Assembly (NCBI GenBank): GCA_946803715.1
Contig: CAMPET010000118.1
Location: 28,753 to 92,752, forward strand
Length of the DNA stretch: 64,000 nucleotides
Direction: 5' to 3'
Source of the DNA: Beroe ovata
Lineage: Eukaryota > Ctenophora > Nuda > Beroida > Beroidae
The translations under genes were made by a program, and so were the position numbers. Position 1 is the first letter of the stretch, and each line of letters opens with the position of its first letter. Positions 27,633 to 30,686 of the stretch are shown piece after piece. Below the pieces are notes generated by a model. It was not told the DNA's origin and made no database searches. It saw only the letters and a program-made list of their open reading frames with translations.

Positions 27633-27772
27633 TCACGTGGCATATTTGTTGGTCCATTCCCGAGCAGTGCTCAGATACTTTTCTCGATCAGTTTTCAGAA
27701 CTCGTGCTATATCCGGGACAAGAGGGTCCTCAGGATTGGGGTCCGTGAGGAGCGAACATATCGATAGCAGCA
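27633..27772 (-). other. UBE2D alternative last exon, distal (consensus-like C-terminus)
   Basis: A TGTTTCAG acceptor, 140 open bases and TGA. It encodes [20 protein letters not shown], then [19 protein letters not shown] and NKYAT. It lies 609 bp downstream of the proximal copy. The IAR..KTDREKY stretch follows the animal UBE2D consensus. Confidence 0.88.
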
Positions 27773-30686
27773 CTGAAACAAGTAAGGGGCATTGTATTCG
27801 TGAATCAACTGGTTCATCAACTGGTTCATCAATTCATGACATTGATAACTGCAATGGATGGTAGGTCCACATTTGACGAAATGAATAACAAGCAAAACAA
27901 AATATAACAAATCATAACGATTTTACTTGAATTTTGAAATTGATTTACAATTGATATCAAAGCAGACCTCCACGTTAATCCCACATTAATCAAATGAAGA
28001 ATCAATAATACCTCTGCCATTAGATAATCGAGAAAAATCTTATGAAACTGTAAGTATCTACATGAGGAAGCCATGTACAAACACCCTAATCGATTAATAC
28101 AATGAAAATAAGAGAATTAGTAGAGGGGGTATATTATGGTGTGCGTGGCCCGATGTACTGGCTATTATTCCCCCGATAGTCCTCTTATCGACACACACAC
28201 AAACGCCGAGAGATGAGTTTGCGAGAACATCTACTACTTCGCTAGCTGAAAATAAACGGGAAATGCAAGTGGGTGTGTATATGGGGCGTCATAATGGCGG
28301 ACGATCAATGAATGGATATTGGACGACAATGCTATGAAAAACACACTTACCTACCTCGAAGGGACAAACTAAGCGCGAAAGTCAGCTGGCGTATTTTTTG
28401 GTCCATTCCCTTGCTGATTTAAGATACTCCTTTTGATTTAGTTTGTATTGTTTAGCGATGTCCGGGACAAGTGGATCGTCGGGATTAGGGTCTGTCAACA
28501 AGGAACAGATTGATAGCAACACTGAAACAGTTGTCGTTGTTATGGTACAGGGGATGCCTTAGTCATGGGTCAGGGTTGTGAAAAAACGGGGTACTAGATT
28601 GTAGGGATGGGGGACGGGGCTGTATAGTTAGCCAGTTTTAGGGAGGGAGGATGGGGGAGTGGAAGTTTTGATTCAGAAGGGGATGTTGATACGACCCCAA
28701 TACCCGTCGATCCGAAATGTCAATGGCCTACATACTGCATACAATATCCTATCGTTCTGAATACCATATCTTTCTAAATACTACGGAATTGGATGCTGCT
28801 CTAATATCCACGGTAGATTCTTTCTTCGTGTGAGGGATCTCATACAAACGATTGCCTCAAAACAAAGTGTGACCTCAAAAAATACTTAAGAAAACGAAAT
28901 CAAAAGCAAAAAGGCAGGAAACAGAAGACATTCTGGCCCCGTAGAAAACATAACGATATCGATGGAGCAAAAGCAGTGCAAACACATGGCTGATAATAAT
29001 GGGACTGATCTCATGATATAAATGCTACCACGATAACTATCATTGTTGTAACTTACCTTTTGAGATGGTGAGGGCCGGACTCCACTGAGATCGCAGAATA
29101 TCGAGACAGATGCTACCATTACTGTTGATATTGGGGTGGTATATCTTCGTAGTGAAACTCACCTGTGACCAAAGACAAGTTATTGTTTGAGTGTGTGTGT
29201 GTGTGTGTGTGTGTGAGNTCAAATTTTCGCCTCGAACCGACAAAACGTCTCAGAAAGAGTCACAAATGATTCCCATTGACTGAAACTGAGACGTCACGTG
29301 ACAGCAATCGATAAACGTCATCATCAGAAGTTTCATGAGAGCTTAGCAGGAAGCCAATTCATGAAGTAACAACAAGTTGTGCATCTGTACTGAGAGAGCG
29401 TCGGATGTGTGTCAGATATCTTGCCTCTGTGTGTGTGTGTGTGTGTGTGTGTATTGAATTACCTTGGGGGGTTTGAAAGGGTAGTCTGTAGGGAAGTGAA
29501 TGGTAAGGAAGAATACTCCACCAGAGTAGCCACTATCTGACTGAGATAATTTGACGGTTAGCATGCAGTTATCTTATTGACAAAACGAACGTTCATATCT
29601 CCCGAAGAAGTTACACGATAATTCAATATTAAGATTACTTACTGGCCCCATGATAGTAGCTTGCCAATGGAACACTGAAATGAAATACAATTTAACTGTT
29701 TTATTATCAGCCATGGAATTCTCCCGTTACTACCAATTTTGACGGAGACGGTCGTTAAATATGCTACTTCCGCGTTACTGCTGTTAAATCTTTCAACTTA
29801 TTTAGAGTAACGTGCGTGACAAAAATCAAAGATTGCCCATTGAGCCGCGCACACAAAATGCTAAAATCAAACTTTGCATAGCGCAGTATTAAATGTTAAA
29901 GAGGAGCATTGTTAGTGCACAGTGCTGCGCGCGTATCGGTGTCATGCGCGCACTTACGATAGTAACCGTATTTCCACAACTCACAGAACTCAGAGACAAC
30001 GCGACACTTATAGTACGTGACGTCTATTCCCGTGACATAACTTTCATGCTTTGAGAGGTAAATAATAATCACTGAAGTGACATAACGTTACAGTTAGATT
30101 ACAACATTTGTTCTTGAAACATATTGACCGAATTGTGACGTAATACGTGACGTAACGACTCAACACTCTATTCCATTTTGGTGACCCAAGATAAGTAATA
30201 TAATTCAGTAAATCTGCGTTCAACATTCAATGGACCACAGCGAAAATTTCTTTTTTATCGATAGAAAATGTGCAAGTACAATTCTTATAGCCGCATATTG
30301 AACACCGCAGTGTATAATATGTATGATTTCCATATTTAGACACAAGAACACGGAGGAGAGATAAGGGAAAATTACTCACTGTCATCTCCGACTGGCCCAG
30401 CCGAACACGAGGCTGGTGGATCTCGGCCCAAATCTTGCAATTCCTGAAAATGAATGATGTAACAGCTGTGTCGCCAATGGTGCCTTTCATTGAAACTTCT
30501 GATATCACGAACTTTCATCATCACGGCACGTGAACCAATTCAACGTAATTAGACACCCCAGTTCAAGATAGCAACTTGTTTTTCTCGTAAGATTAACTTG
30601 CCAAACCACAATATGAACACCTACATATCTATATTACCAAACAATACGAAACAATATCTCACCTTTGTTATCCTCTTAAGAGCCAT
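27633..30686 (-). CDS. UBE2D: UBE2D-type ubiquitin-conjugating enzyme E2 (UbcH5 family)
   Basis: UBE2D enzymes take ubiquitin from E1 and pass it to many RING and HECT ligases. Five constant minus-strand exons, 30663-30686 (ATG), 30380-30443, 29643-29674, 29463-29540 and 29057-29162, are followed by either of two 140-bp last exons, 28382-28521 or 27633-27772. Either form is 147 residues, the exact family length. The N-terminus [18 protein letters not shown], backside Ser ([13 protein letters not shown]), HPN motif (YHPNINSNG) and catalytic Cys85 ([20 protein letters not shown]) are all present. The distal exon ([12 protein letters not shown]) is closer to the animal consensus than the proximal one ([12 protein letters not shown]). 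All junction phases agree. Orthology at family level is certain; use of both ends is inferred from their integrity. Confidence 0.96.
28382..28521 (-). other. UBE2D alternative last exon, proximal (divergent C-terminus)
   Basis: A TTTCAG acceptor, 140 open bases and TGA. It encodes [20 protein letters not shown], then a divergent [19 protein letters not shown] and KKYAS. Reading frame, length and splice phase equal those of the distal exon at 27633-27772. Being first in the transcript, it would be the default unless skipped or bypassed by later polyadenylation. Confidence 0.85.
29176..29452. repeat. Two (TG)n microsatellites in UBE2D introns
   Basis: TG runs at about 29190-29215 and 29431-29452 flank the intron between the 78-bp and 106-bp exons. 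The first ends at a single N (29218), another probable contig join. Confidence 0.85.

Follow-up and report, generated by a model that had tools for sequence, protein, structure and literature searches.

Within the 64-kb stretch of DNA analysed here, which we refer to as the window, we observe a UBE2D gene whose stop-bearing coding exon has been duplicated in tandem, with both copies intact. The gene spans 30686-27633 on the minus strand and comprises five coding exons followed by exon 6a and then exon 6b, with GT-AG introns between all of its coding exons. Its coding features are as follows.

30663..30686, minus strand: UBE2D exon 1, coding part (MALKRITK), with donor AAG/GTGAGA
30380..30443, minus strand: UBE2D exon 2, 64 nt
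29643..29674, minus strand: UBE2D exon 3, 32 nt
29463..29540, minus strand: UBE2D exon 4, 78 nt
29057..29162, minus strand: UBE2D exon 5, the last shared coding exon, 106 nt, with donor AAG/GTAAGT
28382..28521, minus strand: alternative exon 6a, coding part, 140 nt, stop-bearing; tail as in protein P0004 except at residues 131 and 147
27633..27772, minus strand: alternative exon 6b, coding part, 140 nt, stop-bearing; 41 of 46 residues as in protein P0140

The original prediction had described two 140-bp exons that share a TTTCAG acceptor and a phase, lie 609 bp apart (28381-27773) and each carry their own stop, and all of these details were re-derived here. Joining exons 1-5 to 6a or to 6b (isoforms a and b, respectively) gives in both cases a 147-residue E2 ending in a TGA stop, and the two copies are neighbouring homologous exons, identical at 96 of 140 nucleotides. 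Their similarity is limited to the acceptor and the exon, starting at the former and stopping at the stop codon. The further statement that they agree early and diverge in the last helices also holds, as 13 of the 46 residues differ and 12 of these lie within the last 23. Beyond 6a and 6b, a tblastn search of the window returned no further strong copies of the exon. About 2.2 kb upstream of the start codon, at 32878-33271, there is an inverted repeat resembling a small non-autonomous DNA transposon, with 98-nt arms (32878-32975 and 33174-33271) that are 98% complementary and 198 nt apart.

Both isoforms match the UBC domain (Pfam PF00179) across residues 5-141, with 180.2 bits for isoform a and 177.6 bits for isoform b against a cut-off of 27. 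For isoform a, the one isoform compared with solved structures, the top match is UBE2D1 (PDB 2oxq, E 9e-87, residues 1-146; 60 of 315 matches listed), and the nearest solved relatives are UBE2D1/2/3, without an extension at either terminus. The predicted catalytic site, SICLDIL, which holds the family Cys85, lies in exon 5. UBE2D enzymes are described in an excerpt of PMC9790923 as partners of many E3 ligases, with a sequence extraordinarily conserved across eukaryotes.

The gene is not the only one of its kind in the genome. When the assembly was searched (77.8 Mb, 534 contigs), a second complete UBE2D gene was found on C16 (L038 4698-2277; G000:C16:406697-404276; minus strand), which contradicts the earlier idea that exon choice takes the place of gene duplication. 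This gene has the same exon lengths as the window gene and is identical to it at 93 of 101 residues across exons 1-5, while its tail, IARIYKNDKNQFTELAKKWTKKYAM, differs over residues 125-147 from 6a at 14 of 23 positions and from 6b likewise at 14 of 23. Over the 6 kb surrounding the C16 gene, tblastn detects one last exon and no second strong copy. A weaker and more divergent UBE2D/E-like E2 exon was also observed on C112 (L041 1654-1767). The same assembly gives no COX1 match, and its Wnt matches fall on just 4 contigs, a weak hint of a non-bilaterian, for example a sponge.

The presence of a second gene bears on whether the exon pair could be an assembly artefact, with a last exon from some other UBE2D gene or allele wrongly joined to this locus. 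The window does have gaps and single N letters, but no N lies between 23015 and 29217, the similarity of the copies ends at the exon edges, the copies are too divergent for alleles, and the other close UBE2D gene found, that on C16, has a different tail. We consider such an error extremely improbable.

The two copies look constrained: both have stayed coding while their tails change fast, and the constraint is modest for the tail half alone. In addition to the residue differences, 18 further codons differ synonymously only (by a count from the codon list), and the divergence is of coding type, with pS of 0.71 and pN of 0.20. The dN/dS check proposed in the original prediction was made for the pair and gives a value near 0.11, which is a rough guide only because synonymous sites are saturated. 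For the same reason, dating of the duplication by synonymous sites was dropped (pS 0.71 overall, with the NG86 estimate infinite for codons 1-23). In neutral simulations, each copy was mutated to 44 nucleotide differences in 20000 runs per copy, with a run counted as passing if it had at most 14 residue changes and no stop. Over the whole exon, where 13 changes are observed, 0 of 20000 runs passed from 6a and 0 of 20000 from 6b; the median number of residue changes was 26, and a stop was gained in 82% of runs from 6a and 73% from 6b. Across codons 1-23, which differ at 17 nucleotides and one residue, none of the 20000 runs from either copy was as good as the observed pair. In codons 24-46, which differ at 27 nucleotides and 12 residues (dN 0.43 versus dS 1.43), 0.7% of runs from 6a and 2.1% from 6b were as good, and it is because this share of neutral runs matches the observed tail that the evidence for constraint is much weaker there. 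At codons where only 6a departs from the C16 gene, there are 6 synonymous changes and 1 nonsynonymous change, compared to 4.75 synonymous and 4.25 nonsynonymous changes at codons where only 6b departs.

Comparison with database proteins yields a near match for each copy. That of 6a is P0004, a protein of 165 residues from an intron-free 902-bp JGI contig (a cluster of 4 members), which is 99% identical to isoform a, sharing 145 of 147 residues and differing only at residues 131 and 147. Given the lack of introns, it derives from spliced RNA or, less likely, from a retrocopy. Past residue 147, P0004 reads on as Trp-Leu-Leu..., where the window has TGA-CTT, and this Trp may most simply be read as the TGA stop translated under another code. 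The near match of 6b is P0140, from a 2544-bp ENA contig that is apparently unspliced, whose last exon is identical to 6b at the 41 of 46 residues listed above. In P0140, the exon is preceded by Ile-Ser-Val, matching the readout of the acceptor TTTCAG/TG, and the residues after it are Trp-Cys, in the place of TGA-TGT in 6b. Both proteins thus pass the expected stop with Trp for TGA, which suggests gene calling with a TGA=Trp code on animal contigs.

With 5 differences to P0140 versus 13 to 6a, exon 6b is nearer to its counterpart in another animal than to its neighbour, and thus, the duplication probably predates the split between the two animals. With respect to the use of one copy per transcript, 6a alone is present in P0004, and we find no 6b transcript among the 120 listed of 244 matches to isoform b. 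This absence carries little weight: database sequences are clustered at 90%, and isoform b has 92% identity to P0004, so that the 6b isoform could be hidden within the P0004 cluster.

These observations also speak to the possibility that only one copy is used and the other is a dead duplicate. The tail of 6b is nearer to the usual one, sharing 16 of 23 residues with lamprey P0055 compared to 11 of 23 for 6a, and this, together with the weak acceptor of 6a and the modest constraint of the tail half, would be in keeping with a single copy in use. Against this, neutral simulations of the whole exon never reproduce the observed pattern, 6a is present in P0004, and 6b is conserved in P0140. On the strength of the simulations and of the near matches of both copies, we judge a dead exon duplicate to be very unlikely.

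The sequence past the two stops changes how the copies are to be placed within the transcript. Strong 5' splice sites, which the original prediction does not mention, are found at 28350 and 27601, each exactly 31 nt past its stop, and the features concerned are as follows.

28349..28381, minus strand: 3' UTR after the 6a stop, 31 nt, then the predicted donor TAG/GTAAGT at 28350; second donor GAG/GTAGGT at 28354
27600..27632, minus strand: 3' UTR after the 6b stop, 31 nt, then the predicted donor GGG/GTGAGT at 27601
26400..27488, minus strand: speculative shared 3'-UTR exon, from the nearest acceptor-like site at 27488 to AATAAA at 26431 and 26407

Donor and acceptor scores were obtained with simple, approximate matrices. 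By this measure, a donor of such strength occurs in 0.76% (6a) and 0.52% (6b) of 7526 50-nt stretches of the window, both strands included. With the donors at 28350 and 27601 in use, exons 6a and 6b would be 171 nt each, and the presence of donors at the same distance past both stops indicates that they are probably internal 171-nt mutually exclusive exons. The designation as terminal exons in the original prediction is therefore only partly upheld: the copies are alternative and stop-bearing, but their terminal position is probably wrong. In P0140, Val-Ser lies 33 nt past the presumed stop codon, so that GTRAGT is possible there (GTN AGY). The only donor-like site that follows the stop of the C16 gene is a weak one (score 3.0), at a distance of 5 nt.

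On the acceptor side, 6a scores poorly (-3.4) compared to the other five acceptors (-0.8 to 4.8), that of 6b (3.3) among them. Between 27600 and 23500, there are 7 acceptor-like sites with a score of at least 2, of which 27488 is the nearest (3.3) and 24630 the best (7.1); across the window, 252 sites on both strands reach an acceptor score of 3. Just past 6b, between its donor and the 27488 site, we observe a perfect 23-bp tandem duplication (27508-27553). Farther along, at 24787-25023, there is an 18-bp tandem repeat of 13 copies, whose minus strand contains 11 donor-like GTGAG words.

The main alternative is that both 6a and 6b are genuinely terminal, have separate poly(A) sites, and are chosen by alternative polyadenylation. 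Such an arrangement has a precedent in human capping protein beta, for which passages of PMC3228551 describe 3'-terminal exons that are homologous and have several poly(A) sites, and the sequence between the copies does contain AGTAAA at 27927 and AATATA at 28135. P0004 likewise lacks a clear splice past its expected stop, and its 3' end thus gives no confirmation of a UTR exon; its extension has no convincing match in the window, and by eye none at the 27488 site either. However, apart from those two hexamers, there is no AATAAA or ATTAAA from 28382 to 27772, and separate poly(A) sites would leave the donors 31 nt past both stops unexplained. Because these donors are present and the intervening 609 bp lack AATAAA and ATTAAA, we favour mutually exclusive, UTR-spliced exons and regard alternative polyadenylation as unlikely.

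From the sequence, we consider it quite likely that 6a and 6b are used alternatively as internal mutually exclusive exons with a shared 3'-UTR exon, forming a switch of the C-terminal helix-turn-helix. In this mechanism, exon 5 would be joined to 6a or to 6b, one per transcript, and each copy would end 31 nt past its stop at a donor spliced to the common 3'-UTR exon. A stop usually escapes nonsense-mediated decay when it lies within 50-55 nt of the last junction. At a distance of 31 nt, the stop of either copy would accordingly escape, while a transcript with both copies would end its reading frame in 6a, with ~200 nt between the stop and the last junction, and should undergo decay. Decay of such double-copy transcripts would help to enforce the use of one copy or the other.

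The two products would have the catalytic core in common, their differences being in the C-terminal helix-turn-helix. This element is reported, in part of PMC9790923, to influence whether E2~ubiquitin is open or closed, how stable the protein is, and which substrate lysine is chosen, and phosphorylation at residue 138 is described in a portion of PMC7306689 as destabilising UBE2D3. Given these reported effects, a changed activity or protein level is the likeliest consequence, and the switch between 6a and 6b would most likely tune the output or level of the E2 according to tissue or stage. With a choice of splicing that alters mainly the C-terminal helix-turn-helix, one gene would give two E2s of different output.

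Comparable exon pairs are found in other animals. Among the matches listed, the start motif of the exon occurs twice in 4 of the 248 proteins retrieved (120 listed from each of 7050, 244, and 475 matches, with overlap). Three of these are bivalve gene models with a tandem exon, from Tegillarca granosa (P0139), Mizuhopecten yessoensis (P0003), and Mytilus edulis (P0006); the fourth, P0005 from Cynara, was set aside as two fused E2 models. Each bivalve model has two copies of the VLLSICSLL...KYA exon, and the complete copies diverge mostly in the last 23 residues, as do 6a and 6b. They differ from the window gene in being automated protein models, known from proteins alone, in which both copies are fused, and the first Mytilus copy ends after KTD.

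A tree of the last-exon peptides was built from 46 columns and 31 rows, which represent the window and C16 genes together with 26 of the 248 retrieved proteins, with the shortened first Mytilus copy and P0023 left out. Exon 6a joins P0004 (100/98) and 6b joins P0140 (93/85), in a tree of only 46 columns in which 2 of 28 inner branches are well supported and the bootstrap is unsettled. Neither of two constrained groupings is rejected: 6a, 6b, P0004, and P0140 as one group (AU p 0.305), or a group in which Tegillarca copy 2, Mizuhopecten copy 1, and P0015 are placed with 6b and P0140 (AU p 0.283). The question of interest is not the existence of the pair but whether one duplication or several gave rise to those of the window gene and the bivalves. 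We put forward, tentatively and as somewhat less probable than not, that the last coding exon was duplicated long ago, or repeatedly at the same intron, in animals as far apart as this compact-genome animal, bivalves, and vertebrates. If so, the C-terminal helix-turn-helix would be a conserved switch, under the control of splicing, in an E2 that is among the most general of the animal kingdom.

Our literature search, by the titles and abstract openings listed for the open-licence literature, found no invertebrate UBE2D last-exon duplication, and the string 'UBE2' is absent from the main text of PMC9741552, PMC3228551, PMC5740500, and PMC4465641. The portions of PMC8395830, PMC6907093, and PMC6143958 considered here concern alternative promoters or hub-gene lists for UBE2D2 or UBE2D3, not last exons. 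In other genes, homologous alternative exons that give two C-termini are known from the human tandem-duplicated exons, for which an excerpt of PMC9741552 counts 236 substitution events, 77 of them C-terminal, and from capping protein beta, as far as PMC3228551 was drawn on above.

The closest counterpart lies within the family itself. According to the methods of PMC7306689, vertebrate Ube2d3 genes can be told by an extra exon, 7a, a minor alternative that lies upstream of 7b, the exon mainly used. Together with the three bivalve models, this precedent, as given in that part of the paper, removes the earlier claim that last-exon choice would be unusual. The arrangement is thus known in kind; what is new is an example outside vertebrates, and its interest is mainly that of recurrence in distant animals. 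Such an example allows a test of whether UBE2D3 exons 7a/7b are a switch of long standing in animals or were invented more than once. From the partial description available in PMC7306689, the vertebrate pair and that of the window gene belong to the same family and apparently occupy the same position, with the alternative exon upstream of the last coding exon. Compared by description only, on the basis of the same part of that paper, they differ in that vertebrate 7a is minor and specific to UBE2D3, whereas the upstream copy of the window gene, 6a, is the one seen in the near-identical, intron-free P0004.
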